Of a stretch of DNA of 64,000 nucleotides, positions 29,491 to 49,202 are shown one piece after another. Source of the DNA: Streptomyces niveus (lineage in GTDB: Bacteria; Actinomycetota; Actinomycetes; Streptomycetales; Streptomycetaceae); assembly GCF_001723055.1 (NCBI RefSeq), contig NZ_MDCR01000114.1:1-64000 (forward strand), in the 5' to 3' direction. A program made the translations under genes and the position numbers. The notes under the pieces are model-generated. The model was given only the letters and a program-made list of their open reading frames with translations. It ran no database searches and had not been told where the DNA came from. Position 1 is the stretch's first letter. Each line of letters begins with the position of its first letter.

Positions 29491-30870
29491 TCAGTCCCGG
29501 AGGACCACCCGCGCCCGTACCCCCGGGCTCGGCCGCAGATTCACCAGCAGCTGGGGGCGGATCTCCTGGCCGGGCAGCAGGTCGACGCGCAGTCGCTGCG
29601 CCATCACGGCGGTCAGCAAGTGGCCCTCCATCATGGCGAGATGGCTGCCGGGGCAGACGTTCCCGCCCGTACCGAACGGCAGATAGGCGCTCTTGGGCAG
29701 GGCCTTCTCACGCGCGCGTGCGAAGCGGTCCGGGTCGAACCTCTCCGGGTCCTCGAACACCTCGGCCCGCCGGTGCAGGCTGTAGGCGTTGATGAAGACC
29801 ATCGTGCCCGCCTTGATCGTGTAGTTGCCCACGGTCGTGTCCCTGACCGCCTGCCGGGGGATCATCGACGCCGGCGGGTAGAGCCGCATGGCCTCCTTGA
29901 AGACCTGCATGCAGTACGGGAGCAGAGTCAGGTCCTCGAAGGTGACCGTGCGGCGGCCGAGGACCGAGTCCACCTCGTCGAGGACGCGTTCGCGCACCGC
30001 GTCGTGGGTGGCGAGCAGGTAGAGCGTCCAGGCCTGCGCGTCGGCCGACGTCTCCTGGGAGGCGCCCCACGCGGTCAGCGCCTCGTCGAGGAGCAGGGCG
30101 TCCGGCATGCCGCTGCCGTCCTCGTACCGGGTGTTCATCAGGTCGGTCAGCAGGTCGACCGTCTCCTCCCGGTCGGGCGAGGCCCGCCGTTCGGTGATGA
30201 ACTCGGCGATCCAGCGCCGGATCAGGGCGATGTTGCGGCGGGCGCGGCGGTTCCTGGGCGTGGGGACCCACAGCGGCAGCCCCACCACGCTGGTGATGGC
30301 GTGCATCTCCCACTCGAACGCCTCGGTGATCGCGCGGGCCAGTGCGCGGTTGTCCCGCGACGAGGCGCTGAAGAGGAGCTGGGTGACGATGTCCATCGTC
30401 AGGGAGTTCATCTCGGCGACCAGGTCGACCTCGGCCGGCTCCGCCCAGCGGGACACGAAGCGCTCCGCCTCGGCGACGATCGTGTCCGCGTGCTTGGGCA
30501 CCTGGCGGGGCGAGAGATGCGGCAGGACGATACGGCGCTGCCGCGCGTGTGTCTCGCCCTCGCTGACCAGCAGCCCCTGCCCCATCAGCGGCTCCAGCGC
30601 CCTGGTCTGCCGCTTGCCCCGGCCGTAGTCGGCGGCCCGCTCGATGAGGACCTCGCGCACGGTCGCGGCCGTGGAGACGACGACGGCCCGGCCGGGGCCG
30701 ATCCGGAAGCCGGCCACTCCGTCGGGGGCGTCGGCCGACAGCCCGGCGAGCGCCGTGATGGTGTCCCGCTGGAGTTCCCGCGCGTGGCCGAGGAGAAGCG
30801 AGGCGCCGGGGGCCAGCGGCGGCGGCTGGGCGGCGGTCGTGCTCGCCGCGGAGGCGGTACTGGCGGTCAT
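29491..30870 (-). CDS. Cytochrome P450 with atypical heme and I-helix motifs
   Basis: A 459-residue P450 overlapping the upstream desaturase gene (ATGA). The heme loop is FGTGGNVCPG (residues 399-408): Cys406 is the iron ligand, but the usual Arg at position 404 is Asn. The I-helix segment is GASQETS (269-275), with Ser in place of the second conserved Gly while the acid and Thr (Glu273, Thr274) remain. The ExxR motif is Glu326-Arg329 (KEAMRLYPP). The order YPP, PRQAVRDT and NAYSLHRRAEVFEDPERF resembles fatty-acid or terpene hydroxylating CYPs of the bacterial self-standing type. As part of the operon it presumably oxidises the alkyl chain of the product. No ferredoxin gene is adjacent. Confidence 0.88.
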   Translation of the reverse strand: MTASTASAASTTAAQPPPLAPGASLLLGHARELQRDTITALAGLSADAPDGVAGFRIGPGRAVVVSTAATVREVLIERAADYGRGKRQTRALEPLMGQGLLVSEGETHARQRRIVLPHLSPRQVPKHADTIVAEAERFVSRWAEPAEVDLVAEMNSLTMDIVTQLLFSASSRDNRALARAITEAFEWEMHAITSVVGLPLWVPTPRNRRARRNIALIRRWIAEFITERRASPDREETVDLLTDLMNTRYEDGSGMPDALLLDEALTAWGASQETSADAQAWTLYLLATHDAVRERVLDEVDSVLGRRTVTFEDLTLLPYCMQVFKEAMRLYPPASMIPRQAVRDTTVGNYTIKAGTMVFINAYSLHRRAEVFEDPERFDPDRFARAREKALPKSAYLPFGTGGNVCPGSHLAMMEGHLLTAVMAQRLRVDLLPGQEIRPQLLVNLRPSPGVRARVVLRD

Positions 30871-32036
30871 CGGACGGCCCTTTCATCGCTCGGGACACCC
30901 CGCGCGGGCTTCGCGGCCCTGGCGGGGAGGAGGGTGCCTGCCTTCTGGTGTGCGCGGGACTCGCGCACCAGCCGGCCCAGGGACGCGAACAGGCCGGGGC
31001 TCTCGGTGAGCCGGTAGGCCGAGTCCGGGGGCAGCGCGCTCACCAGACGGTCGTGCGCCAACTGGTAGTTGTGGTACGGCAGTCCGGGCATCAGATGGTG
31101 CAGCGCGTGCAGCCGCAGCCCGACCGGGGCCCACAGCTCGGCGAGCGGACGGTTGCGCGGGTGGTTGACGGTGTCCATCATCTGCTCGACCACGGACATC
31201 TCCTCCTCGTTGCCCACGTAGCGGTGGGCGGCGAGCAGCCGGGCGGAGTTGAGTACGGCCACGGCGGCGAAGAGCGCGCACCACTGCCAGACGCGGCCGA
31301 GCGAGACGGTCCCGGTGGCGACCAGCGCGGCGACGGCCCCCATCCAGAGCAGGCAAGCGGCTTCCTGGAGGCGCCAGTTGAGCTTCTCCTCGGGCTTGGG
31401 GAGCCGGCCCTCGTACTCCAGGTCGATCTTCAGCGAGGAGAGGTTCCGGTAGAGGTAGGTGCGCACGCGGGGGACGAACCAGGAGACCGGGGTGACGACC
31501 CCGAACCGGTACGGGCCGAAGAGCGGCAGCATCAGCGGCAGGACGAGCAGCTGGACGCTGCTCCAGAGGGACATCCGGGCGAGCGGCAGATACTCCGCGT
31601 CCTCCCCGGTGCCGTAGAAGCGCCGGTTGTGGTGCTCGCCGTGACAGTCGTACATGAACACCGGCACCAGCATCGGGATGCCGAAGATGATGTTCCAGCC
31701 GTTGCGGAAGCGGTTGAAGGAGCGCTTCGCGCGGAAGTGGGCGATCTCGTGGATGAAGGCGAAGCAGCGGAAGACGGCGAGGACCGAGACCACGAACGCG
31801 GCGGCGCCTCCGACGGTGAGGCCGCCGAGGGGGCCCACCGCCCAGAACGAGGCGACGGCGACCACGTACGAGCACAGGAAGTCCGCCCAGTAGACCGCGA
31901 GGCGGGGTTTGAACAGGCCGTTCAGGCTCTGGTGGGCCTCGCGTACCGAGAAGTCCCGCATGGCCCGCTGGACCTCGGGTTCCCAGACGATCGCGGGCGC
32001 GGCCGGCCCGGGCCCCTGTCGTTGGCGCTCAGCCAT
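30867..32036 (-). CDS. Membrane fatty-acid desaturase
   Basis: A 389-residue di-iron membrane desaturase or hydroxylase. It has three histidine clusters: HEIAHF (96-101), HGEHHNRRFYG (132-142) and LHALHHLMPG (309-318). Hydrophobic spans near residues 50-95, 115-130, 160-185 and 225-265 fit the usual fold with the clusters facing the cytoplasm. Such enzymes act on acyl chains linked to lipid, CoA or ACP. Its operon position between the SRPBCC protein and the P450 suggests that it introduces a double bond or hydroxyl into the lipid chain. The start overlaps the SRPBCC stop by 8 bp and the stop overlaps the P450 start. Confidence 0.9.
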   Translation of the reverse strand: MAERQRQGPGPAAPAIVWEPEVQRAMRDFSVREAHQSLNGLFKPRLAVYWADFLCSYVVAVASFWAVGPLGGLTVGGAAAFVVSVLAVFRCFAFIHEIAHFRAKRSFNRFRNGWNIIFGIPMLVPVFMYDCHGEHHNRRFYGTGEDAEYLPLARMSLWSSVQLLVLPLMLPLFGPYRFGVVTPVSWFVPRVRTYLYRNLSSLKIDLEYEGRLPKPEEKLNWRLQEAACLLWMGAVAALVATGTVSLGRVWQWCALFAAVAVLNSARLLAAHRYVGNEEEMSVVEQMMDTVNHPRNRPLAELWAPVGLRLHALHHLMPGLPYHNYQLAHDRLVSALPPDSAYRLTESPGLFASLGRLVRESRAHQKAGTLLPARAAKPARGVPSDERAVR

Positions 32037-32574
32037 GCCGCCGGCCTCCCTCGGTGCTCGAAGAGACGCCCTGCTGGGCGTAGTTGCGGACGAGCCTGCG
32101 GTGCCGGTGGGTGAACAGCGCGCCCATCATGCGGTGGAAGGGGACACGCATGGGCCGCATGTGCGGCCGTACGACATAGGAGAGCCGGTCGGTGATGCGC
32201 GTACCGCCCGGCGCGGCCTCGACGGTCCGCTCGTGTTCCCAGACCTTGGTGCAGGAGGTGGTCGACCGTTCCAGGAATCGGCGGCCCTCCTCCCGTTCGG
32301 CGATGGTGATCTCGTCGAAGTCGATCGGCAGGACGCCGCCGAGGAAGATCCACGACTTGCCGAGCGACGACCCGAGCGGCACGTCGCGGATGGACGGGTC
32401 GCGGCGCAGCTCCCTCGGCAGGGTCATGCGCATGTACGGCAGCAGTTCGGCGTTGACGCCGCCCATGCTCGTCACATCGGTCCACAGGGCCTGGGGGTCG
32501 ACTCCGGGGAGGACGGAGGTGCGTACGACCCGGTCCCACTTCTTCTCGTCGGCGGGCGGTCCGGCGGTGGCCAT
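32029..32574 (-). CDS. SRPBCC (START-like) ligand-binding protein
   Basis: A 181-residue protein coupled to the upstream fusion gene by TGATG. Secondary structure fits the helix-grip fold: WDRVVRTSVLPGVDPQALWT, a long beta region (GKSWIFLGGVLPIDFDEITI, EHERTVEAAPGGTRITDRLS) and a C-terminal helix with FHRMMGALFTHRHRRL. SRPBCC proteins bind hydrophobic ligands and in clusters act as cyclases, aromatases or carriers. Here it may hold the lipid aldehyde, amine or polyketide intermediate between enzymes. That role is inference from context. Confidence 0.7.
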   Translation of the reverse strand: MATAGPPADEKKWDRVVRTSVLPGVDPQALWTDVTSMGGVNAELLPYMRMTLPRELRRDPSIRDVPLGSSLGKSWIFLGGVLPIDFDEITIAEREEGRRFLERSTTSCTKVWEHERTVEAAPGGTRITDRLSYVVRPHMRPMRVPFHRMMGALFTHRHRRLVRNYAQQGVSSSTEGGRRHG

Positions 32575-35315
32575 CAGGCGGCTCCGTCCACGGTGTCGGT
32601 ACGGCGCTCGGGCAGGTGGAGGCGGAAGCCGAGGCGCGCGGCGTCGTCGCGCAGGGTGCGGACGAGCTGTCCGGAGAGGCGCTCGCCCTGGCTGACGACC
32701 GGGTCGTCCAGGCGGTGGGCGGCGATCATCGTCTCGGCGGTGCAGGCGTACGTGACGCCGTACGGCAGCCCGAAGTCGAGACCGGTGTCGCGGTCGCCCG
32801 GCATCCGGATCAGGCCGCCCGCGACCACCATGACGTCGGGGCGCTTCCTCCGTACGTCGTCGCCGACGTTCGGGGGCTGCGACACGTCGCACACGGCGGC
32901 GTTGCGGCGCAGCAGGTCGGGGCGGACGATCTGGTCGGGGGTGGAGGTGGCGGCGAGGATCAACTCGCCGCCGGGCAGGGCGTCTTCGGCGGAGAGCGAG
33001 GTCGTCAGCAGCCCGTCCGCGGCGAGTTGGCGCGCGATCCCGGCGGCGTCCACGGCGTCCGCGCCGTCCTTCGCCAGCCGCAGCGCGGCTCGGGCGAGCG
33101 CGCCGTACCCGGACTCCTCGCTCCCCGACGCCGACTCGCCGCCCAGGCCCACGAGATGGGCGGCAACGTCCTCGGCGACGGCGGCCAGACGCTGTTCGCT
33201 GCGCTCGGGGTGGGCGGGATTGCCGACCAGGACCAGCCGGCCCACCCGCTCGGCGAGCAGCAGGCTGGAGGCCCGGCCGATGGCGCCGGCCGCGCCCAGG
33301 ACCACCGCCCCCGCGTTGGCGAGGTCGGTCCCCTGGCGGTGCGCGGCCTGTTGCAGACCGTCGACCCCGGCGGCGACCGTGTAGGCGTTGCCGGTGGTGA
33401 TCGGCACCCCGCGGTCGTCGAGGGCGGCGGCGTTGGCGGTCACCACGGAGGTGTACGCGCCGAGACCGACGAGCTGCGCCCCGCGCCGTACCGCCTCGTC
33501 CACGGCCTGCTGCACCAGTTCGGTGGCCTGCTCGGCGGGCATGTCGAGCAACCGCCTGGCGCCGTAGGGAAGGGCGAAGATCTCGCCGTACGAGGTCTGG
33601 CCGCCGTCCGTCACGACGCGGCACGAGCCGACGAACATGGCGGCGGGGGTGTCGACGTTGCGGCACTGGTTCATCCGGTCGAAGAGGACGCGTACCTGAT
33701 CGCCGGGCAGACCGAGCCTGTTGTCGTAACTCGCGTAACTGGCCAGGTCGGTGGGGTGCGCCACGAAGGCCCAGCGGGGCTCGCCCTCGCGAGGGGCGAC
33801 GGGGTGCTCGACGGGCGGACGCTCGCCGGTGGCCACCCGCGCGTCCGCGTCCGGTGCCTTCGAGATGACACCCGCGGGCAGCAGATGACGGAAGAAGCGC
33901 GCGCTGTCCCCCGCCTCGATGAGTTCCAGCCCGCGGTGCAGTGCCTCCACGAGCGTCCGGCACTCGTCCTCGGAGACCGTGAGCGGCGGCTCGACCCGCA
34001 GGACGCTGTTGGAGAAGTACGTGGGCGCCAGCCGGATGCCCTCGTTGCGCAGCAGATAGCCGCAGAGGAACCCGGCGAGACCCTCCTGGCCGGCCAGCGA
34101 GCGGAAGAGTCCCTGGTGCGGGAAGACGTCCGGATCGGTCGTCAACTCCACGCCCATCAGCAGCCCTTGGCCCCGGACGTCGGTCACCAGGCGCGGATGC
34201 GCGGCACGGACCTCCTCAAGGCCCTTGCGGAGCAGGTCGGCCCGGTCGGCCACCTCACGCACCAGGGCCTGGCCGTTCTCGGTGAGCAGTTCGAGCGACC
34301 GGAGTCCGACCCGGGAGCAGAACGCGTTGCCGCCGAAGGTCGACGTGTGCCGCAGGCCGAAGTCCTCGCTGAGCGAGGACTCGCCGAAGAGCACGGCGCC
34401 GATGGGCACCATGCCACCGCCGAGCGCCTTGGCCAGCGGCATGATGTCCGGGACGACCCCGCTGTGCTCGCACCCGAACAGCCGTCCCGTACGGCCGAGT
34501 CCGGTCTGCACCTCGTCGATCACCAGGCGCGCCCCGTACCGGGTGCACAGCTCCCGCGCGGCCAGCAGGAACTCGTGGGACGCGAGGTGGATGCCGCCCT
34601 CGCCCTGGACCGTCTCCACCAAGAACGCGGCGATGTTCCCGCCGTCCTCGGCGAACAGCTCGGTCAGCGCCCCGACGTCGTTGAACGGGACGTGCCCGAA
34701 GCCGGAGACGGGTGCGCCGAACGGCTCCTGGTAGCGCGGGCGTCCGGTCGCGGACAGCGCGCCGAGTGTCTTGCCGTGGAAGGAGTCGCTGGTGGCGACG
34801 ACGCGGTGGCGTCCGGTGGCGGCGCGGGCGATCTTGATGGCCGCCTCGACCGCCTCCGCGCCGCTGTTGCAGAACCACGCCTGGGTGAGACCGGGCGGGG
34901 CGGCCTCGACCAGCCGCTCGGCGAGCAGTGCCGCCGCGCCCTGCACGGAGGGCTGCGTCAGGCTCGGTTCGGCCGACTCGCGCAGGTCGGCGACAGCCTC
35001 CCAGACACGGGGCGGGTTGTGCCCGAAGGGCAGGGCTCCGTAGGCGCCGGCGAAGTCGAGATACGCGTTGCCGTCGGCGTCGTAGAGGGACGTGCCCGAG
35101 CCGCGCACATAGGTGATGTCGAGGCCGAGCCCGTCGAGGGTCCGGGCGATGTACGGGTTGACGTGCCGCCGGTAGCGGTCGGCGGTGGTGTCGCGGGCCG
35201 CGAGTCCTTCGAGACGGCGGCGCAACTCGGCCCGCCTGTCGTCCCCGTGGCCGGGGGCGGCGTCCTTGTGCGGCGCCCCGGAGTCGTACTGCGTGTCCAT
35301 CACGTTCTCGTCCAC
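32574..35315 (-). CDS. Fused class III aminotransferase / acyl-ACP reductase
   Basis: A protein of 913 residues from the GTG at 35315, placed 7 bp after the PKS stop with GGTGA upstream (an ATG 5 codons later is also possible). Residues about 40-460 form a class III PLP aminotransferase: WFCNSGAEAVEAAIK, DSFHGKTLGALSATG, LVIDEVQTGLGRTG and Lys296 in MPLAKALGGG. Residues about 510-905 resemble cyanobacterial-type acyl-ACP reductase: VGLGAYTSVVTAN, ITTGNAYTVAAG and the Rossmann motif VVLGAAGAIGRASSLLLAE (about 671-689), with a Cys in NQCRNVDTP. The known parallels are PigE and TamH, which reduce an acyl thioester to an aldehyde and then aminate it, but there I recall the reductase coming first. 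The likely reaction is acyl-ACP to fatty aldehyde to primary amine, releasing the chain from the PKS. Confidence 0.85.
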   Translation of the reverse strand: MDENVMDTQYDSGAPHKDAAPGHGDDRRAELRRRLEGLAARDTTADRYRRHVNPYIARTLDGLGLDITYVRGSGTSLYDADGNAYLDFAGAYGALPFGHNPPRVWEAVADLRESAEPSLTQPSVQGAAALLAERLVEAAPPGLTQAWFCNSGAEAVEAAIKIARAATGRHRVVATSDSFHGKTLGALSATGRPRYQEPFGAPVSGFGHVPFNDVGALTELFAEDGGNIAAFLVETVQGEGGIHLASHEFLLAARELCTRYGARLVIDEVQTGLGRTGRLFGCEHSGVVPDIMPLAKALGGGMVPIGAVLFGESSLSEDFGLRHTSTFGGNAFCSRVGLRSLELLTENGQALVREVADRADLLRKGLEEVRAAHPRLVTDVRGQGLLMGVELTTDPDVFPHQGLFRSLAGQEGLAGFLCGYLLRNEGIRLAPTYFSNSVLRVEPPLTVSEDECRTLVEALHRGLELIEAGDSARFFRHLLPAGVISKAPDADARVATGERPPVEHPVAPREGEPRWAFVAHPTDLASYASYDNRLGLPGDQVRVLFDRMNQCRNVDTPAAMFVGSCRVVTDGGQTSYGEIFALPYGARRLLDMPAEQATELVQQAVDEAVRRGAQLVGLGAYTSVVTANAAALDDRGVPITTGNAYTVAAGVDGLQQAAHRQGTDLANAGAVVLGAAGAIGRASSLLLAERVGRLVLVGNPAHPERSEQRLAAVAEDVAAHLVGLGGESASGSEESGYGALARAALRLAKDGADAVDAAGIARQLAADGLLTTSLSAEDALPGGELILAATSTPDQIVRPDLLRRNAAVCDVSQPPNVGDDVRRKRPDVMVVAGGLIRMPGDRDTGLDFGLPYGVTYACTAETMIAAHRLDDPVVSQGERLSGQLVRTLRDDAARLGFRLHLPERRTDTVDGAA

Positions 35316-35322
35316 GGTGTCG

Positions 35323-38300
35323 TCACCATTCTTCGCGGTTCTCAAGAGTGCTCAGCAGTTCGGCCACTTCGGCCTCGGACAGCTCGTCGATGCGTTCCAG
35401 GGCGGCGCGTGCCTCGTCGTTGGACGTGAGCCGGCGCTCGGGCAGGGCGAGCCTGCGGGCGATCTCCCGGAGGCTGGCGCCCTCGGTCAGCGCCGTCAGG
35501 GGGATCGCCGTGCCGAGTTCGTTCTCCAGCCGGCTCTTGAGTTCGACGAAGACGACGGAGTCGACGTCGAAGTCACGGGTCGGGTGGTCGACGCTCAGCG
35601 CGCCGGGGTCGACCTCCATGGCCTCGGCCACGGTCTCCAGGAGGAGGGCGAGCACCCTCGCCCCGGGGTCGTCGCCGTGGGCTTCGTGGGCGTGGGCTTC
35701 GTGCGCGTGGGCTTCGTGGGCGTGGGCGGCCCCGGGGTCGTCGTGCGCGGCGGCCGGGGAGGATGGTGCGGTCGCGGAGAAGGGCGAGGCCTGCCCCGGG
35801 GGACTCTCCGCGACCGCGGTCTGTGGTGGCCCGCCGGTGCCGGCGGGCGATCGGGTGCCGGGGATCCAGTGCGCGCGCCGCTGCCAGGGATAGGTAGGCA
35901 GCGGGAAGGTGTCCGGCGGACCGGGGTGCAGGGCTTCCCAGTTGACGTCGCAGCCGGCCTCCCACAGGTCGCCGGCGGCCTTCCAGAGGCAGGCCGCCTC
36001 GTGGCGTTCACCGCGCAGCGTCGACACGGCGACGCCGTCCACTCCGCGGTCGCGCAGGGCTCGCCGCAGGTGCGAGGTGAGGGCGGGGTGCGGTCCGATC
36101 TCGACGAACGACGTCACGCCCGCGTCGAAGAGGGTGTCCACGGCCTCGGTGAAGAGCACGGGACGCGCCGCGTTCGCCGCCCAGTGCTCCGCGTCCAGGG
36201 ACCGGCCGTCGACCCGGCCGCCGGTCGTGGTCGAGAACAGCGCGATGCCCTCGGCCTTCGTACGGAGGCCGCCGAGCGCGCTTCGGATCTCCTCGGCGGC
36301 CGGCCCCAGACCGGGGCTGTGGAAGGCGTAGTCGGTCTCCAGCGCGGTGGTGCGCCAGGGGGGCAGCAGCGCCTGTACGGCGGCCAGCCGCGACGCGGGG
36401 CCCGACAGTACGACGGTCCCCGGCGCGTTGAGCGCCGCGATGCCGACGGTGGCGAGCGACGCGTCGCGTTCCGTCAGGCGGTCGAGCAGCGCCTGGACCT
36501 CGGGGGCCCCGGCCCGTACGGCGAGCATGGCGCCGCCGGTGGCGTGCCGGTGCAGCGCCTCGCCGCGGGCGAGGAGCACCTGGACGGCCTCCGTACGGCC
36601 GAGGGAGCCGGCGGCGACGGCCGCCGCCACCTCCCCGACGCTGTGGCCCGTCACCGCGTCCGGGGTCAGCCCCCAGGCGCGCAGCCGTGCGGTGACGGCG
36701 AGTTGGAGGGCGACGATGCCGATCTGGGCGAAGCGGGTGTCCTTGAGCGCGCGGGCCGAGTCGGGGCCGCGCAGTGTCTCCAGGAGCGGCGGGCCGCCGG
36801 CGCGGGTGATCGCCTCGTCCCAGCGGGCGAGTTCACCGGCCACGAGGGGGTCGCGGTCGGCCAGTCGCATGCCCATACGGGGCCACTGGCCGGACTGTCC
36901 CGAGTAGACGAACGCGAGCCTGGGCCGGCCCGCCCGGTGTGGCGGGGTCGTCGCCAGCCGTTCCCCGGCCCGGCGCACCGCGGCGGGCAGGTCCTCCGCC
37001 AGCTCGGCCGTGACGGCGACCCGTACGGGGTGGTGGGCACGGCGGCGCGCGGCGATCGAGGCGGCGGCCGTCAGCGCGGCGGCCGGGGCCCCTTCCAGGG
37101 CGCGGGCGGTGCGGTCGACGTGCGCGGCCAGTGCCTCGGGCGAGCGCGCGGACAGCGGCATCAGGACGGCCGGTCCCCCGGTGTCCGGAGCGTGGCCGCG
37201 CGCGGCCTCGGCCGCCGTCCGGGCTTCGCGTACGGCGGGGACGGCGTCCGGGTGGGCGAGGATGGCGTGGGCGTTGGTGCCGCCGAAGCCGAAGGAGCTG
37301 ACCGCCGCGTACCGCCGTGCGGAGTCGGTCCAGGACTCCTCCTGGCGGGCGATCGCGAACCGCTGCCCCGTCAGGTCGATGCGCGGGTTGAGCGCGTCGA
37401 TGTTGATCTGCGGGGGTACGGTGCCGTGCTTCAGGGCGCCCAGCGTCTTCAGTACGGAGGCGATGCCGGCGGCGAACTCCAGGTGCCCCAGGTTGGCCTT
37501 GACCGAGCCGAGCCAGCAGATGGGGTCCTCGGCGGTGGCGCCGTAGACGTCGCGCAGCGCCGAGAACTCGATCGGGTCGCCCAGCGGCGTACCGGTGCCG
37601 TGCGTCTCCACGAACGTGATGTCGGACGGCGCGAGACCCGAGGTCTTGAGCGCTCCGGACAGGAGCAGGGACTGGGCGACCGGGGAGGGGGCGGTGAGTC
37701 CGTTGGTGCGGCCGTCCTGGTTGGTGGTGGTGGCGAGGATGACGGCCTCGATCGGGTCGCCGTCGGCGAGGGCGTCGGACAGCCGTTTGAGGGCCACCAC
37801 ACCGAGGCCCTCGCCGCGGACCATGCCGTCCGCGTCGGCGGCGAACGCCTTGCAGCGGCCGTCCGGTGCCATCGGCAGGGCGCGCCCGGTCAGCGTGGAC
37901 GACAGGGGCGAGAGGATCAGGCTGACGCCGCCGGCGACGGCGCGCCTGCTCTCGCCCGTACGCAGACTCTGGCAGGCCAGGTGCAGGGCCACGAGGGAGG
38001 AGGAGCAGGCGGTGTCGACGGCGATGCTGGGGCCGCGCAGGCCGAGTTCGTACGAGACACGGTTGGCGATCATGTTGCGCGCGGTGCCGGTGGCCAGCCT
38101 GCTGCCGATTCCGTCGCCCGCGGCGAGCGCGGTGAGCAGATAGTCCTGGTGGCCGACGCCCAGGAAGATCCCGGTGGGCGTGCGGCGCATCTCGTCCGGT
38201 GTCCAGCCGGCCCGCTCCGCGCACTCCCAGACCGCTTCGAGGGTGAGGCGCTGCTGCGGGTCCATGAGGTCGGCCTCGGCGGACGAGATGCCGAAGAACC

Positions 38301-38616
38301 CGGAGTCGAAGCCGTCGACTCCGTCCAGCAGCGCGGCGTGGCGTGGGATACGGCCGAAGGCCGGGTCGTCGAGGCCGTCGAAGTCGACGCCGCTCCAGCG
38401 CTCGCCGGTCAGCGGCCGGACCAGGTCGCGGCCGGCGCGCAGCGAATCCCAGAGCGCGTCGGGGGTGTCGGCGCCGCCCGGCAGCCGGCACGCGGAGCCG
38501 ACGACGGCGACGGGCTCGCCGGGGTCGGGGGTACGGGAGCGCAACTCGGCGATCTCCCGGCGCAGTTCACTGATCAACGCGTCGTTGTCCGGCCCGCCGC
38601 CGGTGGCAGCGGTCAT
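35323..38616 (-). CDS. Type I polyketide synthase module, KS-AT-ACP
   Basis: A 1097-residue protein. The ketosynthase (about 35-460) has Cys204 in DTACSSSL, His339 in VETHGTGTPLG and His378 in KANLGHLEFAAG, a complete triad. The acyltransferase (about 565-860) has Ser659 in GHSVGE and YAFH (763-766) at the extender-selecting position, between the malonyl HAFH and methylmalonyl YASH forms. A linker with an Ala-His-Glu repeat (about 964-981) leads to an ACP with Ser1020 (DFDVDSVVFVE). No KR, DH, ER or thioesterase is present, so a single unreduced extension, or reduction in trans, is expected. It is coupled to the ACP gene before it, and the reductase/aminotransferase follows. I infer that it extends an acyl chain delivered by the acyl-AMP ligase and ACP. 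Confidence 0.93.
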   Translation of the reverse strand: MTAATGGGPDNDALISELRREIAELRSRTPDPGEPVAVVGSACRLPGGADTPDALWDSLRAGRDLVRPLTGERWSGVDFDGLDDPAFGRIPRHAALLDGVDGFDSGFFGISSAEADLMDPQQRLTLEAVWECAERAGWTPDEMRRTPTGIFLGVGHQDYLLTALAAGDGIGSRLATGTARNMIANRVSYELGLRGPSIAVDTACSSSLVALHLACQSLRTGESRRAVAGGVSLILSPLSSTLTGRALPMAPDGRCKAFAADADGMVRGEGLGVVALKRLSDALADGDPIEAVILATTTNQDGRTNGLTAPSPVAQSLLLSGALKTSGLAPSDITFVETHGTGTPLGDPIEFSALRDVYGATAEDPICWLGSVKANLGHLEFAAGIASVLKTLGALKHGTVPPQINIDALNPRIDLTGQRFAIARQEESWTDSARRYAAVSSFGFGGTNAHAILAHPDAVPAVREARTAAEAARGHAPDTGGPAVLMPLSARSPEALAAHVDRTARALEGAPAAALTAAASIAARRRAHHPVRVAVTAELAEDLPAAVRRAGERLATTPPHRAGRPRLAFVYSGQSGQWPRMGMRLADRDPLVAGELARWDEAITRAGGPPLLETLRGPDSARALKDTRFAQIGIVALQLAVTARLRAWGLTPDAVTGHSVGEVAAAVAAGSLGRTEAVQVLLARGEALHRHATGGAMLAVRAGAPEVQALLDRLTERDASLATVGIAALNAPGTVVLSGPASRLAAVQALLPPWRTTALETDYAFHSPGLGPAAEEIRSALGGLRTKAEGIALFSTTTGGRVDGRSLDAEHWAANAARPVLFTEAVDTLFDAGVTSFVEIGPHPALTSHLRRALRDRGVDGVAVSTLRGERHEAACLWKAAGDLWEAGCDVNWEALHPGPPDTFPLPTYPWQRRAHWIPGTRSPAGTGGPPQTAVAESPPGQASPFSATAPSSPAAAHDDPGAAHAHEAHAHEAHAHEAHGDDPGARVLALLLETVAEAMEVDPGALSVDHPTRDFDVDSVVFVELKSRLENELGTAIPLTALTEGASLREIARRLALPERRLTSNDEARAALERIDELSEAEVAELLSTLENREEW
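35676..35728 (-). repeat. 15-bp tandem repeat encoding a histidine-rich PKS linker
   Basis: About 3.4 copies of GTGGGCTTCGTGGGC (plus-strand reading) lie between the AT and ACP domains and encode Ala-His-Glu-Ala-His units on the minus strand. The copies are almost identical, which points to recent slippage expansion, so copy number may vary between strains. Confidence 0.8.
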
Positions 38617-38897
38617 GACGTGGCCGCGAGATGACGGGCCAGTTCGGTCACGGTGGCGTGGCCGAAGAACGACTCGGGCGGCACCTCGCGCCCCAGGGCG
38701 TCGGAGACGCGTCCCGACACGGCGACGACTCCGGCGGAGTCCAGCCCGAGGTCGCTGAAGGCGGCGTCGGGGTCGACGCGGGTCCCCGGGGGAAGTTCCA
38801 GGTCGGCGACTATCGCCTCTTCCATGACCGCGGCGATGTGCGCCTCGGTGTGGCGACCGCCGTTCCGCTCGTTCACGATTCCCCGTTCGGTGTTCAC
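38613..38897 (-). CDS. Stand-alone acyl carrier protein
   Basis: A 94-residue ACP between the acyl-AMP ligase and PKS genes, overlapping both by 4 bp (GTGA before, ATGA after). The phosphopantetheine site is the Ser in LGLDSAGVVAV, followed by PPESFFGHATVTELARHL, the usual helix 3-4 region. The first ten residues may be an unneeded extension, since another start is possible near NERNGG. It is the natural acceptor for the fatty acyl-adenylate made by the ligase and donor to the PKS ketosynthase. Confidence 0.9.
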   Translation of the reverse strand: MNTERGIVNERNGGRHTEAHIAAVMEEAIVADLELPPGTRVDPDAAFSDLGLDSAGVVAVSGRVSDALGREVPPESFFGHATVTELARHLAATS

Positions 38898-40825
38898 ACG
38901 TGTCCCTTCTCCAGCGCCAGTGACTGCGGTTGGGTCTGCGGTTGCGTCTGCTGGGGCGAGTGCGGGGCCACCGCGCTCCCCGGCCAGCCGGCTAGCGGGT
39001 TGAACCCGGCCGTGGCCCAGCGTCTGGCCGCCTCCCGGCGCCGTACCTTTCCGCTGGTCGTCCGTGGCACGGCGCCGGGCTTGAGCAGCTCGACCGCCCT
39101 GACCGCGATGCCGTGCGACTCGGTGACCGCGCGGCGTACGGCGGTGAGGACCGCGTCGTGGTCCCGGTCACGCCCGTAGTCGGCGAGTTCGACCAGCAGC
39201 ACCAGCTCCTCGGCGCCCACGACGCCGTCGACCGGCACCCCGACGGCGGCGACCCGGCCGACCGCGGCGTGGGCGGTCTCGACGGTCGCCTCCAGGTCCT
39301 GGGGGTGGTGGTTGACGCCGTTGTGGACGATGACGTCCTTGCGGCGGCCGACGATGTGCAACTGGCCGCCGTGCATGACGCCGAGGTCCCCGGTACGCAG
39401 ATAGCGCCGGTCCGAGCCCTGTACGGCCGCGCCGAAGGTCGCGTCGGTCGAGCCGGGCCGGTTCCAGTAGCCGCCGGCGACGCTGGGCCCGCTGACCCAG
39501 ATCTCGCCCACCTCGCCGTCCGGCAGGTGGACCTGCGCGTCGGGATCGACGACGGCGACCTCGGTGTCGTCGGTGAAGCTCCGCCCGCAGCCGACCAGGG
39601 TCAGTGCCCGGTCGCCGCCGCTCTCCCCCGCGCCGTGATTCCCGGGGCTGCTCACCCGGCCTTCGCGCAGGGCCTGTTGGGACGCCTCGGTCAGCGCGGG
39701 CTCGGCCTGCCGGTCGACGCAGCTCACACAGAGCGTCGCCTCGGCGAGCCCGTAGACCGGCATCATCGCGCGGGGCTCCAGCCCCCAGGGCGCGTACGCC
39801 TCGGTGAAGTCCTCGATGGTGCGCGGGCGTACGGGCTCGGCGCCGCTGAGCGCGTGCCGCAGACAGGACAGGTCGAGTCCGGCGCGGCGCTTCTCGGCGA
39901 CTTTGCGCGCGGCGGTGGCGTAGCCGAAGTCGGGCGCGATGGTGATCGTGGCGCGGGACTGCGAGATCTCGTGGAGCCAGGAGGCCGGGTCGCGCAGGAA
40001 GGCGGCGGGGGTGCTCATGCGTACGCTCATACCGGCCCAGAGCGGGTGGCAGATCATCCCGATGAGGCCCATGTCGTGGAAGAGCGGCAGCCATCCGACG
40101 GCGGTCTGTCCGGGGCCGGAGCCCAGGTTCCTGGCCAGGCCGGCCGAGTTGTGGACGAGGTTGGCGTTCGAGACCATCACGCCCTTCGGCTCCGAGGTGG
40201 AGCCCGAGGTGTACTGGAGCAGCGCCAGGCTCTCGGGCCGCCCCAGGGGCGCGGGCAGGGGGGTGGGCGGCGAAGCGGCACCGGCCGGGGAGCGTTCCGT
40301 CCCGTACGTCGTCGGGTCGAGCAGCAGGGGCGGCCGAAGCCCCGCCCGCTCGGCCAGGGTCCGCAGCCGCTCGTGCAGCGCGCGCTCGGCGAGGACGGCG
40401 GCCGGCCGGCAGTCCTGGAGGATCGCCAGGGCCCGCTGGTCGTACTTGTCGCCCGCGCGGGCGGTGGACAGGGCCGGCGGGTGGAAGGTGACCGCGACGG
40501 CGTCCGCCATGAGGCAGGCGAAGAACGACGCGACGTAGTCGAGCCCGTTGGGCAGCGCGATCAGGACGAAGGGCCGGTCGTGGCCGTCGCCGGGCAGCGG
40601 CGCCAGGGCGGCGCCGAGAACGCTCGCGCGCAGGTGCAGCCCGGCGTAGGTGTGGGTGCGGGGCTCGCCGGTGCTGCCCCGGTAGGTGACGGCCGCCCGG
40701 TCGGGCATCGCGGCCGCGTGCGCGGCGAGGGCGTGCGCGAGTGTCGGCACCTCGCGCGGGTCGGGCAGCTGGTGCGGGTCGGGCAGTCCGGGTGTGTCGG
40801 GCAGGTGGCGCGTGTCGTGCGGCAT
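38894..40825 (-). CDS. Fatty acyl-AMP ligase (FAAL)
   Basis: A 643-residue adenylating enzyme; the ATG at 40825 overlaps the upstream stop by one base (TGATG). Motifs are LLQYTSGSTSEPKGVMVSN (P-loop), GWLPLFHDMGLIGMICHPLW, MPVYGLAEATLCVSC, YLRTGDLGVMHGGQLHIVGR and PRTTSGKVRRREAAR with the catalytic Lys. These follow the long-chain FAAL pattern rather than CoA ligases. FAALs activate free fatty acids as AMP esters and hand them to an ACP; the ACP gene is next. It should choose the starter lipid of the cluster. Confidence 0.92.
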   Translation of the reverse strand: MPHDTRHLPDTPGLPDPHQLPDPREVPTLAHALAAHAAAMPDRAAVTYRGSTGEPRTHTYAGLHLRASVLGAALAPLPGDGHDRPFVLIALPNGLDYVASFFACLMADAVAVTFHPPALSTARAGDKYDQRALAILQDCRPAAVLAERALHERLRTLAERAGLRPPLLLDPTTYGTERSPAGAASPPTPLPAPLGRPESLALLQYTSGSTSEPKGVMVSNANLVHNSAGLARNLGSGPGQTAVGWLPLFHDMGLIGMICHPLWAGMSVRMSTPAAFLRDPASWLHEISQSRATITIAPDFGYATAARKVAEKRRAGLDLSCLRHALSGAEPVRPRTIEDFTEAYAPWGLEPRAMMPVYGLAEATLCVSCVDRQAEPALTEASQQALREGRVSSPGNHGAGESGGDRALTLVGCGRSFTDDTEVAVVDPDAQVHLPDGEVGEIWVSGPSVAGGYWNRPGSTDATFGAAVQGSDRRYLRTGDLGVMHGGQLHIVGRRKDVIVHNGVNHHPQDLEATVETAHAAVGRVAAVGVPVDGVVGAEELVLLVELADYGRDRDHDAVLTAVRRAVTESHGIAVRAVELLKPGAVPRTTSGKVRRREAARRWATAGFNPLAGWPGSAVAPHSPQQTQPQTQPQSLALEKGHV

Positions 40826-41829
40826 CAGTGTGCGGGCCCCTCTGCGAGCCATCGGTCGACGGCGACGATGGATTCGTGCAACGGCGTGTGGCGCAGGCCG
40901 AGTTCGTTCTGGGCGCGGGTGGTGTCGTAGTACAGGTGGTTGACCATGAGGGCGGTGTTCTCCGGCACCACGAAGGGGGATCTCATCGGGTCCCGGCTGA
41001 AGACGCCGAGCACGGCGCCCAGCCGTCCGGCGGCGCGGATCAGCGGACCGGGCACGGCGAAGCGGGGCTCACGGGAGCCGACGGCGCGGCAGATCTGGGC
41101 GCACAGTTCGCGGTAGGTGAGGTTCGCCGACGAGACGATGTAGCGGCGGCCCGGTCGGCCCTTGGTCATGGCCGCCCGCATGCCGTGCAGCATGTCCTCG
41201 ACGGCGCACATGGACACGCCGCCCGGCGGATAGCCGATCAGCTTGCCGCGCCGCGCGGTGTCCACGAGCATGGCCCAGCCGTAACGCGGGTGGCTGTACG
41301 GGGCGATGACCGCGCCCAGGTTGACGAACACGACCTCGGCGCCGCTCTCCTCGGCCGCGCGCAGCGCCTCCCGCTCGCCGGCCCGCTTGGTCAGCATGTA
41401 GCTGTTGCGGGTGACGGTCCGGACGACGTCGAAGTCCTCGTCGGCCAGCTCCCCGCGGGGCGGGTAGCCGATCGCCGAGATGGACGAGGCGTGTACGACG
41501 CGGCGCACGCCCTCTTCGCCGGCGGCGCGGACGATGTTGCCCACGCCGCGTACGTTGATCTCCTCCATCACGGAGTGCAGCCGGTTGAGGGTCACGGCGA
41601 CGCCGGCGAAGTGGTAGATCTCGTCGATGCCGCGCACGGCCTCGCGCAGCCCCCGCGGGTCCCGGATGTCCGCGTACCGGGTCTCGTACCGCCCGGCGTG
41701 CCGCACCAGACCTCCGGGGCCCTCACCGGGCTTGAGCAGGGCGACGACGTCGTCACCGGCGTCGATACGGTCCCGTGCGAAGGCCGATCCGAGGCTTCCG
41801 GAGGCGCCGGTGATCAGAATGCGGCTCAC
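40825..41829 (-). CDS. Extended SDR / NAD-dependent epimerase-dehydratase-like
   Basis: A 334-residue protein from a GTG that overlaps the upstream stop (GTGA). It has ILITGASGSLGSAFARD (nucleotide-binding TGxxGxxG), YHFAGVAVT, HASSISAIGY and the catalytic YMLTK (Tyr-x-x-x-Lys), all typical of extended short-chain reductases such as dihydroflavonol reductase or 3-beta-hydroxysteroid dehydrogenase-like enzymes. In an operon whose PKS lacks a ketoreductase, it is a candidate to reduce the beta-keto group in trans or to act on the aldehyde or amine product. Substrate assignment is inference. Confidence 0.85.
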   Translation of the reverse strand: MSRILITGASGSLGSAFARDRIDAGDDVVALLKPGEGPGGLVRHAGRYETRYADIRDPRGLREAVRGIDEIYHFAGVAVTLNRLHSVMEEINVRGVGNIVRAAGEEGVRRVVHASSISAIGYPPRGELADEDFDVVRTVTRNSYMLTKRAGEREALRAAEESGAEVVFVNLGAVIAPYSHPRYGWAMLVDTARRGKLIGYPPGGVSMCAVEDMLHGMRAAMTKGRPGRRYIVSSANLTYRELCAQICRAVGSREPRFAVPGPLIRAAGRLGAVLGVFSRDPMRSPFVVPENTALMVNHLYYDTTRAQNELGLRHTPLHESIVAVDRWLAEGPAH

Positions 41830-42956
41830 GGGGTCAGCGCCTTTCCGTAGATGGCGTAGGAACGTGCGGGGCTGGCGTCGGTGAGGCCCATGTAGGCGCG
41901 GCTCTGCCAGTTGTGTTCATGCACCCAGGTGGTGTGGACGGCCCGGTACGGCGGCACTTCGCCGAGTCCGACCCGGGCGATCTCACCGGCCAGTACGCGC
42001 CCGATGCCCCGGCCGGCGACCTCCGGCCGTACGCCGATGAGCAGCACCAGCGCGGCGCCGACGCGGCGCTTGAGCCACGGGTAGCGGATCAGGAATCCGG
42101 GGCCGGCGCGGCCGTGGGTGGCCGCCAGGACCTCGTTGGCGTCCGCCATCAGCATGCTGAATCCCACGGGTTCGCCGTCGAGTTCGACGAAGCGCACGAG
42201 CCGGGGGTCGAGGAACGGTCTGATCTCGTCGGTCTGGAAGCCGAGCACGGCCCGGCTCATCGGCACCATGTCGTGGTTGGTGGCGAAGGACGCGCTCAGC
42301 AGGTCGTGGATCAGGTCGATCTCCCGCTCCCAGCGGGCGGGCTCCAAAGAGCGGACACGCAGGCCCTGTTGGTCGACGACGGCCGCGCCGCGCCGGACGA
42401 GCCTGGCCAGCTGGTCGGCGTCGCGGTCGGCGAAGTAGCTGAAGGTGTCGGTCCGGAAGTCCGGGGTGAAGCCGGCGGCGGACAACAGGTCCAGGTAGTA
42501 GGGCGGGTTGTGGCTCTGGAAGGCGGCCGGGCGGCTGTCGAAGCCGCCCGTCAGCAGACCGAACTCCTGCGTGGAGCAGTAGGAGTGAGGGCCCGTCAGT
42601 CGCACCATGTCGCGCTCGCGCACCCATGTCCCGGCGGCGTCGAGCAGCGCGTCGGCGACCTCGGGGTCGTCGACGCTCTCGAACCAGCCGAAGTAGCCGT
42701 GCCGGCCGAACCGCTCGACGTGCGCCGGGTCGACGCTGGCGGAGATCCGCCCCACGGTCCGGCCCCTCGCGTCGCGGGCGACGAAGTGGTCGATCTGCGC
42801 CTCACGGAAATATGGATTTCTCCGGGGATTTACAAACCGGCGCATGTCGGAGGTCAATGGGGCGACCCATTTCGGGTCCTCGCGGTGAAGCCGTAACGGC
42901 AAGCGGAGAAAATCCTCCGTCATGCGTCGGCCACGTACGGGATGCACGGTAACCAA
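41826..42956 (-). CDS. GNAT-fold acyltransferase-like protein
   Basis: A protein of 376 residues from a TTG at 42956, preferred because AAAGGAAG lies 5 bases upstream; a GTG at 42947 and a TTG at 42989 are alternatives. The N terminus (VHPVRGRRMTEDFLRLPLRL, then EDPKWVAPL) is that of a large family with a C-terminal GNAT fold, and LVLLIGVRPEVAGRGIGRVL carries the acyl-CoA-binding loop. Members are mostly uncharacterised; some resemble N-acyltransferases. It is the first gene of the coupled lipid-amine operon, so N-acylation of the amine product is an attractive but unproven role. Confidence 0.7.
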   Translation of the reverse strand: MVTVHPVRGRRMTEDFLRLPLRLHREDPKWVAPLTSDMRRFVNPRRNPYFREAQIDHFVARDARGRTVGRISASVDPAHVERFGRHGYFGWFESVDDPEVADALLDAAGTWVRERDMVRLTGPHSYCSTQEFGLLTGGFDSRPAAFQSHNPPYYLDLLSAAGFTPDFRTDTFSYFADRDADQLARLVRRGAAVVDQQGLRVRSLEPARWEREIDLIHDLLSASFATNHDMVPMSRAVLGFQTDEIRPFLDPRLVRFVELDGEPVGFSMLMADANEVLAATHGRAGPGFLIRYPWLKRRVGAALVLLIGVRPEVAGRGIGRVLAGEIARVGLGEVPPYRAVHTTWVHEHNWQSRAYMGLTDASPARSYAIYGKALTP

Positions 42957-43286
42957 GACGTCTTCCTTTACGGCTGCCTCGGGGCTCAAACACTGTTGCG
43001 ATTCAAACAGGCTGATCGAGATCCACTCAACAAAATGCGGGGCCGGCGACCCTCCGAGAGGCGAGGTTCACTAAATGCGCAGGTCAGCGGCGTGCATATG
43101 AAAGTCAGATTCATTAACGACCGGTGACATGGGAGTCGTTTTCAATAACTGGGCAAATGGATTCCCCGTTGCATCGCCGCCGAACGAGGTGCTACGGTCA
43201 GCCGCCGTTGCGGCCCGATGGAATTGCGCAGTCTGAAATCGGGCAGTGCGGACTGTCTTCCGACAAGGCAAGAAAGGCGGCTTCTC
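42957..43286. promoter_or_regulatory. 330-bp divergent promoter region of the lipid-amine cluster
   Basis: This is the most AT-rich stretch of the cluster and separates the GNAT-led minus-strand operon from the FabH-led plus-strand operon. It holds no convincing gene. A plus-strand promoter candidate is TTGCAT (43169-43174) with TACGGT (43193-43198), 18 bp apart, for fabH. I found no clear inverted-repeat operator here, unlike at the TetR/MMPL promoter. Confidence 0.5.
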
Positions 43287-44294
43287 ATGCAGCCGGCTCC
43301 CGTAATATGCGGAATAGGAACTTCCTTACCGAGTCGCGTGGTGACGAATGACGATCTGGCAGCCGAGCTGGACACGTCCGACGAATGGATAAGCACCCGA
43401 ACCGGAATCCGCGAACGGCGGATCGCCGACCCCGGAACGGCCACGGGAGATCTCGCCCGCGCCGCCGGTGAGGGCGCGCTCAAATCGGCCGGGGACGCCT
43501 CGGTCGACATGGTCGTCCTCGCCACGACGACGCCCGACCACCGCTGCCCGGCCACCGCGCCCGACGTGGCGCAGCGGCTGGGACTGACCGGTGTACCGGC
43601 CTGGGACCTGTCGGCCGTGTGCAGCGGATTCCTCTACGGCCTCGCCTGCGCGTCCAGCTTCATCCGGGCCGGGACGGCGGAACGCGTCCTGCTCATCGGC
43701 GCCGACACCTACTCGACCATTCTCGATCCCAACGACCGCGCCACGCGGGCCATCTTCGGCGACGGGGCGGGCGCGGTGGTCCTGCGGGCCGGGAGCCCGG
43801 CCGAGGACGGCGCCGTCTCCTCGGTGAACCTGGGCAGCGACGGCACGCTCAGGGACGCGATCCTCGTGGCGGGCGGCGGCTCCCGCAGCCCCTTCCCGCC
43901 CGGTGAAGTACCGGGCGAGGGGCGCTACTTCACCATGCGCGGCAAGACCGTCTTCCGGCACGCGGTCGACCGGATGTCCGAGGCGTCGCGTACGGCCGCG
44001 GAGTCGGCCGGCTGGGACCCCTCGGACATCGACTGCCTCGTGCCCCACCAGGCCAACGCCCGCATCATCCAGGCGGTGGCCGACCGGCTCGGTCTGCCCG
44101 TCGAGCGCTGCGCGAGCAACATCGAGCGGCTGGGCAACACCGCCGCCGCCTCGATACCGCTCGCACTCGCCGACGCGGCGGGCTCCGGACGGCTCCGGCC
44201 GGGCGACCGCGTACTGCTCACCGCGTTCGGCGGTGGGGCCACCTGGGGCGCCGCGGCGCTGACCTGGCCCGACGTCACCCCCATGGCCGGCTGA
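43287..44294 (+). CDS. 3-oxoacyl-ACP synthase III (FabH-like)
   Basis: A 335-residue KAS III from the ATG at 43287 (AAAGGCGG upstream). Catalytic elements are intact: Cys in LSAVCSGFLYGLACA, His in CLVPHQANARII and Asn in SNIERLGNTAAASI, with GDGAGAVVLRAG and TAFGGGATWGAAAL. KAS III enzymes start chains by condensing acyl-CoA with malonyl-ACP. Inside this cluster it may make a dedicated starter or short chain on the neighbouring ACP, rather than serve general fatty-acid synthesis. Confidence 0.9.
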   Translation: MQPAPVICGIGTSLPSRVVTNDDLAAELDTSDEWISTRTGIRERRIADPGTATGDLARAAGEGALKSAGDASVDMVVLATTTPDHRCPATAPDVAQRLGLTGVPAWDLSAVCSGFLYGLACASSFIRAGTAERVLLIGADTYSTILDPNDRATRAIFGDGAGAVVLRAGSPAEDGAVSSVNLGSDGTLRDAILVAGGGSRSPFPPGEVPGEGRYFTMRGKTVFRHAVDRMSEASRTAAESAGWDPSDIDCLVPHQANARIIQAVADRLGLPVERCASNIERLGNTAAASIPLALADAAGSGRLRPGDRVLLTAFGGGATWGAAALTWPDVTPMAG

Positions 44295-44402
44295 ACGGAA
44301 CGTGCCGGGCCGGCCGTTCCCCGGCCGGCTCACGCGCGGCGGCCGACTCTCCCTACGTACAACCCTCCCGACGAGCAACTCCCGATGAAAGCAGGAAGCG
44401 TC

Positions 44403-44672
44403 ATGACGACACCCGTACAACTCCAGTCGGTACGCGAGCAGATGGTCTCGCTCCTCTCCCAGCGCTTCGGTCTGGAACCGGAGTCGGTCGCCCCCGAAGC
44501 GACCTTCGACGCCATGGAACTCGACTCGCTCGCCCTCGTGGAGTTCTCCATCGCGCTCCAGGAGGTCTTCGGAGTACCGGTCAACGAGGAGGAGTTCGGC
44601 GCCGAGAACACCGTCGACCAGGTGGCCGAGCTGATGGCGGCCAAGCTTCGTTCGCAGGGGCAGGCCGGATGA
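44403..44672 (+). CDS. Acyl carrier protein
   Basis: An 89-residue ACP from the ATG at 44403 (GCAGGAAG 5 bases upstream; an ATG six codons earlier is in frame but lacks a site). The attachment Ser is in AMELDSLALVEF, followed by FGVPVNEEEFGAENTVDQ. It lies between FabH and the KS, with ATGA overlap to the latter. It is probably the carrier on which the FabH/KS pair works, distinct from the ACP next to the acyl-AMP ligase. Confidence 0.9.
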   Translation: MTTPVQLQSVREQMVSLLSQRFGLEPESVAPEATFDAMELDSLALVEFSIALQEVFGVPVNEEEFGAENTVDQVAELMAAKLRSQGQAG

Positions 44673-45910: not shown

Positions 45911-45929
45911 GTGGGCGCGGGCGCGCGCC

Positions 45930-45968
45930 AGGGCCCGGCCACCGGATCTCCTCCGGTGACCGGGCCCT
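45930..45968. terminator. Bidirectional terminator between convergent KS and MMPL genes
   Basis: Arms of 17 bp (45930-45946 and 45952-45968) pair at 16 positions around a 5-nt loop, 20 bp after the KS stop and 79 bp beyond the MMPL stop on the opposite strand. Confidence 0.75.
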
Positions 45969-46047
45969 TCGCCGTGTCCGGCGCGTTCCGGGGCGGGCGT
46001 CGGCCCCGGTCCGCCACGAGGGCGGCCGGGGCTCGACCGGCCGGGGC

Positions 46048-48450: not shown

Positions 48451-48460
48451 GAACTCTCCC

Positions 48461-48513: not shown

Positions 48514-48569
48514 AGTGGCTCCCTGAACGCGCCGCCCCGCCGGCGGTGGTCGGAGCAGAAGGTGGAGAC

Positions 48570-49202
48570 ATGGGTACGGCACGCGAAGAGGACGCATCGG
48601 CCGGACGCGGCGAAGGCGGCGAGTCACGCCAGACGGCCCGCAGGACCCAGATCCTGCAAGGCGCCACCGCGGTCTTCGCCCGGCTCGGTTACCACGGCGC
48701 GCGGATGGACGACATCGTCAAGGAGTCGGGCCTCAGCAAGGGCACGATCTACTGGTACTTCACCAGCAAGGAAGAGATCGCCGTCGAACTGGTCCACCAA
48801 CTGCTCAGGGCGGAGGAGGAGTCGATGGAACTCCCCCGCGAGGAGTGGGTGACACCGGAGGCCCGGCTCGGGGCGATGGCGGAGGACTTCACGCGGAGCC
48901 TGCGGGAGGACCCCGTACGCGCGCCGCTGGCGCTCGAACTCCTGGCGCTCGGGCAGCGCATCCCGGCCATCAAGACGTATTTCGCCGGATACCACGAGAA
49001 GTACCTGGCCGTGCTGGCCGAGTTGCTGGGCGCGGCTTCCGGTCGCGCGCCGACCGAGAAGCGGGTCAGATCCGCGGCGGTGGCGGTCACCGCGATGGTG
49101 GACGGCTGGGCGCTGCACGAAGCACTGAACCCGGAACACGCGGCCACCGGGGAGAGCCTCGGCGAGGCCGTCGCCGTACTGATCGACGGCCTGCGGTCGT
49201 AA
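48570..49202 (+). CDS. TetR-family repressor
   Basis: A 210-residue regulator from the ATG at 48570 (GGTGGAG upstream). Its helix-turn-helix reads ILQGATAVFARLGYHGARMD then IVKESGLSKGTIYWYFTSKEE, a textbook TetR DNA-binding domain. The C-terminal ligand domain (RLGAMAEDFTRSLREDP, LLALGQRIPAIKTYFAGYHE) is of the common lipid- or drug-sensing type. It is divergent from the MMPL gene and likely controls it through the palindromes between them. The effector may be the lipid product or an acyl-CoA. Confidence 0.92.
   Translation: MGTAREEDASAGRGEGGESRQTARRTQILQGATAVFARLGYHGARMDDIVKESGLSKGTIYWYFTSKEEIAVELVHQLLRAEEESMELPREEWVTPEARLGAMAEDFTRSLREDPVRAPLALELLALGQRIPAIKTYFAGYHEKYLAVLAELLGAASGRAPTEKRVRSAAVAVTAMVDGWALHEALNPEHAATGESLGEAVAVLIDGLRS

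Follow-up and report, generated by a model that had tools for sequence, protein, structure and literature searches.

Results

A gene cluster with a candidate serine-independent route to a ceramide-like lipid

Streptomyces niveus (assembly GCF_001723055.1) carries on contig NZ_MDCR01000114.1 a gene cluster, at about 29491 to 49202, that in our estimate has an even chance of producing a ceramide-like N-acyl lipid by a route that does not involve serine palmitoyltransferase (SPT). Coordinates refer to the window, i.e. the whole stretch of 64,000 nucleotides analyzed here (positions 1 to 64,000 of the forward strand). The cluster encodes one polypeptide of 913 aa (32574..35315, minus strand) in which a predicted class III pyridoxal phosphate (PLP) aminotransferase is followed by an acyl-ACP (acyl carrier protein) reductase (AAR), together with a GNAT acyltransferase from the superfamily of bacterial ceramide synthases. 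In 150 genomes of the window's genus, GNATs of this kind are accompanied either by an SPT-like gene or by the aminotransferase-AAR fusion.

An aminotransferase-AAR fusion of the TamH/KecF type

The open reading frame of the fusion starts at GTG 35315 (913 aa) or TTG 35345 (923 aa), and its stop ends at 32574. The aminotransferase half (33906..35228, minus strand; about residues 30–470, with Lys296 at 34428–34430) is covered by Aminotran_3 (PF00202) at residues 67–461 (3.9e-84, Pfam profile search), and the AAR half (32601..33779, minus strand; about residues 513–905) contains GAAGAIG at residues 674–680 and Cys858 at 32742–32744. When the C-terminal half was searched as an in-frame query (window:32577-33869), it matched the N-terminal reductase part of the NCBIfam PigE model NF053554 (5.3e-29, best stretch profile 2–202) and TIGR04058, which models long-chain acyl-ACP reductases (2.4e-12); both scores stay under the curated cut-offs, and no Pfam family came out above cut-off. 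Among PDB sequences it matched 4ppm (2.6e-15) and the AAR chains 6jzu/6jzq (about 1e-8), the cysteine in TYACTAETM aligning with that of the AAR motif. An AlphaFold model of the fusion, built from a thin alignment of seven rows (mean pLDDT 58.2), is poor in the aminotransferase half and reaches 65–94 over most of the AAR, with a few blocks near 51; it superimposes on AAR 6jzq_A with Z 32.9 and a root-mean-square deviation of 2.6 over 316 residues. Lys296 and Cys858 are invariant across seven fusion homologs. Sequence and model thus confirm what the first-pass annotation of this DNA had read from its letters, namely a single polypeptide with an aminotransferase preceding an AAR, with Lys296 at the residue number given and with GAAGAIG in the AAR half; the profile searches and structure prediction it had proposed for each half identify the C-terminal half as an AAR, not as an unrelated dehydrogenase.

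The same annotation regarded the domain order as opposite to that of PigE and TamH. This holds for PigE, in which the reductase is reported to precede the aminotransferase (PMC8341465), but not for TamH: PtTamH is described with an N-terminal transaminase and a C-terminal AAR-like reductase, and distant homologs of similar layout are mentioned for Streptomyces (PMC9594044). KecF of the koreenceine cluster, for which partial clusters in Streptomyces are reported, likewise has the aminotransferase-AAR order (PMC6498172). We compared the layout of 14 fusions (the window, genomes G128, G522 and G429 of its genus, loci L020-L023, and L152-L157, the latter being six fetched from 16 plasmid records with matches). 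The aminotransferase comes first in 12, seven of which belong to the window's cluster type, and the PigE-like order occurs in two (L155 and L156, the latter preceded by a gene annotated PigD). Together with the TamH and KecF reports, this rules out novelty by domain order. Against the whole PigE model NF053554 the window fusion scores 472.3 bits, with a cut-off of 850 and the domains reversed, and hence does not qualify as a PigE. It has the hallmarks of the TamH/KecF type (the catalytic Lys296, the AAR Cys858 and GxxGxxG as GAAGAIG) and is, judged by its layout and catalytic residues, another member of that known group.

Among the plasmid fusions, a 1395-aa protein of Leisingera thetidis (L152:4612-8799) joins aminotransferase, AAR and AMP-ligase and is followed by an MMPL transporter; perhaps it combines activation, reduction and amination of a fatty acid in one chain. 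Four more Leisingera plasmids contain an AAR match within an annotated class III aminotransferase, and in Paraburkholderia phymatum (L153:4270-9050) an aminotransferase-AAR fusion, in an unannotated record, is directly followed by a fatty acyl-AMP ligase (FAAL) match.

Within the genus sample, the GNAT is accompanied by an SPT-like gene or by the fusion

Five dihydroceramide genes are reported, spt, acpR, aasR, epi and aca, the last represented by yghO and CC_1154 (PMC9386255); the Caulobacter acyltransferase and reductase have been named bCerS and CerR, respectively (PMC11087976). The window GNAT (41826..42989, minus strand) shows whole-length homology to this YghO/bCerS superfamily, with 25.5% identity to E. 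coli YghO over 97% of its length (1e-34), and is 35.4% identical (2e-51) to a GNAT from Streptomyces sp. NBC_01001 whose neighbor is an SPT-like gene, by which we mean an alpha-oxoamine synthase.

In the window's genus, the GNAT was found at 1e-20 in 11 of 150 genomes, at 13 loci. At ten of these loci an SPT-like gene turned up in the flanking DNA, which was fetched to a distance of at most 8 kb; the remaining three, a small number, are the fusion clusters of the window (G000:C18), G128 and G522. SPT-like matches are absent from the window (1e-5), from the 39 kb taken of G128, from the G522 contig, and from L020-L023 and L129-L132. Genome-wide, those of the window's own genome lie on contigs C7, C49, C461 and C582, with none on the window contig C18; those of G128 lie away from its fusion cluster, and G522 has none at 1e-3. 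Among plasmids, 12 of 18 fetched loci with GNAT relatives (from 44 records) have an SPT-like gene nearby. Among 296 actinobacterial genomes, 34 gave 40 GNAT matches at 1e-15; 38 of these were fetched with flanks, leaving out the window and G128 clusters, and an SPT-like gene lies within 8 kb in 14 of the 38 loci, all 14 among the 20 best-scoring.

With the AAR as query (1e-8), the fusion was matched in five of the 150 genomes, three of the window's cluster type plus G429 and a fragment in G411, which both sit in other gene sets. No GNAT was found in G411, and G429 is outside the 11 GNAT genomes, given that the 150-genome draws appear identical. The window gene set is kept in G128 and, within the limits of the DNA that was fetched, in Streptomyces viridiviolaceus, xanthophaeus, triticirhizae and zinciresistens. 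All four named genomes possess a GNAT-SDR-FAAL-FabH block (SDR, short-chain dehydrogenase/reductase), in two on the same contig as the fusion and in two on another, so that the co-occurrence of fusion and GNAT there lends wider support to the SPT-or-fusion pattern. The G522 fusion is 46% identical to that of the window; polyketide synthase (PKS), SDR, GNAT, FAAL, desaturase, P450 and MMPL genes are retained in G522, which gave no match for SRPBCC or FabH. Altogether, the ceramide-synthase-like GNAT is present in seven of seven genomes with this cluster type, adjoining the SDR in every one, with FAAL beside the pair in six and about 12 kb off in G522.

As an alternative role for the GNAT we examined Rhizobiaceae plasmids (L036:6972-12066 and L043:7016-12036), where GNAT relatives have a ThiF gene in their neighborhood, to which L036 adds a nitroreductase-like gene. 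A plasmid of Nostoc sp. C052 (L050:3702-12364) carries in a row an SDR, a nitric oxide synthase oxygenase, a second SDR, a desaturase, a class III aminotransferase, SRPBCC, GNAT and acyl-CoA dehydrogenase, resembling the window set in gene names, although GNAT, desaturase and SRPBCC are not alike in sequence. It was rejected as a counterpart of the window: GNAT and SRPBCC are unmatched, and the desaturase gives just a 15-residue match (0.37–0.53).

Gene content of the cluster

A run of minus-strand genes reads from 42989 to 29491. The GNAT is followed by an extended, HpnA-like SDR (40825..41829), a possible ketone reductase, a FAAL (38894..40825), a stand-alone ACP (38613..38897, PF00550), and a PKS module of 1097 aa with the order KS-AT-ACP (35323..38616; assigned by Pfam and motifs). 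Neither Pfam nor motif inspection found KR, DH or ER in this module, and its AT bears GHSVG and YAFHS, motifs that we take to be malonyl-like. The fusion therefore stands where the first-pass annotation had put it, after the FAAL, ACP and KS-AT-ACP genes. Downstream lie a small SRPBCC-like protein (32029..32574), whose L022 homolog weakly matches Polyketide_cyc2, a fatty acid desaturase with three His boxes (30867..32036) and a cytochrome P450 (29491..30870). Divergent from this run, on the plus strand, are genes for a FabH-type KS III (43218..44294), a second ACP (44385..44672) and a FabF-type KS (44669..45910), after which come an MMPL transporter (46048..48450, minus strand), kept in the cluster's relatives, and a TetR-type regulator (48546..49202, plus strand). 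Beyond the cluster, in-frame queries of the relatives' stretches gave no match for the FAD monooxygenase gene at 28042, and matches of 32–36% for the MFS boundary gene in three of them only.

A proposed pathway

In the route that we favor, FAAL would load a fatty acid onto the small ACP and the KS-AT-ACP module would add one extender unit, yielding a 3-oxoacyl-ACP whose 3-oxo group would be kept because the module has no KR. The AAR half would then reduce the thioester via Cys858 to the aldehyde, which the aminotransferase half would convert into a 1-amino-3-oxoalkane. GNAT would N-acylate this amine as a bacterial ceramide synthase does, and the ketone may be reduced by the SDR. Tailoring of the lipid would fall to desaturase and P450, its export to MMPL. 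Domain identities, catalytic residues, the gene content shared by the relatives and the division of GNAT loci between SPT and fusion are observed, whereas substrates, step order, extender unit and product are what we infer here.

The steps differ in strength. That the fusion turns an ACP-bound chain into a primary amine is very probable. PtTamH, with its ACP-ligase partner PtTamA, is reported to convert fatty acids to amines (PMC9594044), an analogy that supports the amine-forming off-loader suggested by the first-pass annotation. Acylation of the resulting amine by the GNAT is rather probable, and for reduction of the ketone by the SDR the chances appear balanced. The proposed 3-oxo-amine would resemble 3-oxosphinganine minus the serine-derived carbinol. 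Somewhat short of even likelihood, we consider that PKS extension and reductive amination replace SPT, with the GNAT adding a second chain to give N-acyl-1-amino-3-oxo- or 3-hydroxyalkanes, and that streptomycetes thus have two interchangeable amine routes. The cluster meets part of the description of a sphingolipid pathway, having an aasR-type (FAAL) ligase and a dedicated ACP; since it is without SPT and a CerR- or epi-type reductase, we do not class it as one, although it may still function like one. As a small, independent hint towards a ceramide-like lipid, two of the three desaturase matches among 72,556 plasmid records lie in SPT-bearing loci (Sphingomonas parapaucimobilis and Diaphorobacter).

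A second, parallel ceramide-like cluster was observed in the window's own genome (contig C7, 61938-74000, L089). It comprises FAAL, ACP, FA_desaturase_2, a KS-ACP-alpha-oxoamine synthase of 1108 aa, MMPL, a CerR-like SDR and GNAT, and its SDR is 49.5% identical to the SDR of a Streptomyces SPT locus. Tentatively, and only jointly with a serine-independent route in the window, this genome would hold two routes, one by alpha-oxoamine synthase and one by PKS plus fusion, to a single lipid architecture.

Several observations weigh against this proposal. PtTamH is reported to yield no amine from acyl-CoA and to require its ACP partner, and the acyl chain described as its natural substrate is a plain one that bears no 3-oxo group (PMC9594044). 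A single extension is not general among the relatives: one KS-AT module is present in the window and L020, but a second one, together with a FAD-oxidoreductase-like gene, occurs in G128 and L021 (in L021 the additional module shows a weak DH-like stretch), and G522 has two KS in one 1890-aa frame. No SPT-like gene lies near 6 of the 18 plasmid GNAT relatives or 24 of the 38 actinobacterial loci, several of the latter being on contigs shorter than 10 kb. In a GNAT tree of 56 rows (quick method, no outgroup), the seven fusion-linked GNATs form a clade of their own (SH-aLRT 90), separated from a side of 44 rows (SH-aLRT 99) in which every one of the 35 SPT-linked rows is found. Under midpoint rooting, and dependent on that root, they group with five SPT-less GNATs, three from Rhizobiaceae plasmids and two actinobacterial; in this tree without outgroup, a topology that unites them with the SPT-linked rows of Streptomyces type could not be rejected (p-AU 0.086). 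Their placement means that ceramide-synthase activity is not established by descent. Compared within a small local set, the SDR matches HpnA (about 1e-30) better than it matches the SDR of a Streptomyces SPT locus (3e-12) or E. coli epi (0.03), which rules it out as a CerR ortholog, and the third desaturase match (Sphingomonas panacis) sits in a locus without sphingolipid genes.

Discussion

Alternative products

The alternative that survives best, though we regard it as unlikely, is a cyclic imine or piperidine alkaloid as in koreenceine, built by an iterative or two-module PKS, the amine of the amino-polyketone closing on its own ketone. KecF shares the layout of the window fusion, and its product is proposed to cyclize without an enzyme (PMC6498172); the paired KS-AT modules of G128 and L021 and the double KS of G522 would suit such a product, as would the more distant fusion of G429, whose neighbors are three KS and two SDR genes. 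The window, however, has one KS-AT-ACP, and by chemical reasoning no stable ring of five or six members can arise from a 1-amino-3-ketone. The presence of GNAT, desaturase and MMPL speaks for a lipid instead. Of the other fusion-bearing genomes, G411 gave no GNAT and, if the two draws are indeed identical, G429 has none either.

A pathway that ends at the free fatty amine is less likely still; the GNAT would then take another substrate or confer self-protection. TamH chemistry is reported to stop at the primary amine (PMC9594044), and the MMPL pump could export it. Against this stands the constancy of the GNAT, always adjoining the SDR and in six of seven cases the FAAL. The candidate fatty-amine pathway of the first-pass annotation is supported for the amine-forming off-loader; as an account of the end product it looks incomplete, because a ceramide-synthase-like GNAT occurs in every genome with the cluster type.

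Class III aminotransferase domains that act on beta-keto thioesters are known, e.g. in mycosubtilin, and the predicted PKS product is such a thioester, but an amination of the 3-oxo group, followed by release of the 3-amino chain as an aldehyde by the AAR half, is improbable, as amination of aldehydes is reported or proposed for PigE and KecF and the TamH transaminase is reported to take fatty aldehydes. The swf clusters of sponge symbionts, also considered, are described with PKS, reductase/sulphotransferase and radical SAM in an operon and are thus unlike the window (PMC3908369).

Implications and relation to known systems

By itself, the fusion merely widens the TamH/KecF group. Were the N-acyl lipid route true, ceramide-like lipids need not begin from serine and SPT, and the cluster would supply a set of enzymes with which N-acyl 1,3-aminoalcohol lipids can be made. 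A survey of bacterial producers is reported to define them by Spt-like proteins (PMC11334938), and surveys of that kind would overlook producers with a serine- and SPT-free origin of the amine. Among the papers listed by searches of open-access literature, we recognized none on an SPT-less ceramide-like cluster with an aminotransferase-AAR.

PtTamH (tambjamine YP1, Pseudoalteromonas tunicata) is akin to the window fusion in domain order, ligase/ACP partner and off-loading role (PMC9594044). Its amine enters tambjamine, whereas the window fusion follows a KS-AT-ACP and travels with GNAT, SDR, desaturase, P450 and MMPL. KecF (koreenceine, Pseudomonas) shares domain order and proposed chemistry (PMC6498172), but KS pairs and separate reductases are reported to accompany it and its product is proposed to cyclize, in contrast to the KS-AT-ACP and GNAT of the window. 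PigE (prodigiosin) has both domains and is the best NCBIfam match for the whole window protein as well as its C-terminal half; its reported order, with the AAR first, is the reverse. In SgaAB of Pseudomonas fluorescens MYb115, too, a PKS chain is reported to be made into a long-chain amine (PMC12134224), although SgaB is an alpha-oxoamine synthase where the window has an aminotransferase-AAR. The cluster on C7 is nearer to SgaAB. With the bacterial ceramide pathway (spt, acpR, aasR, epi/cerR, aca/bcerS/yghO), the window cluster has in common a FAAL-type ligase, an ACP, an SDR and a GNAT from the YghO/bCerS superfamily, as well as a desaturase with a relative in an SPT locus of Sphingomonas; it differs in having a PKS module and an aminotransferase-AAR in place of SPT, and an SDR and a GNAT from other subfamilies.

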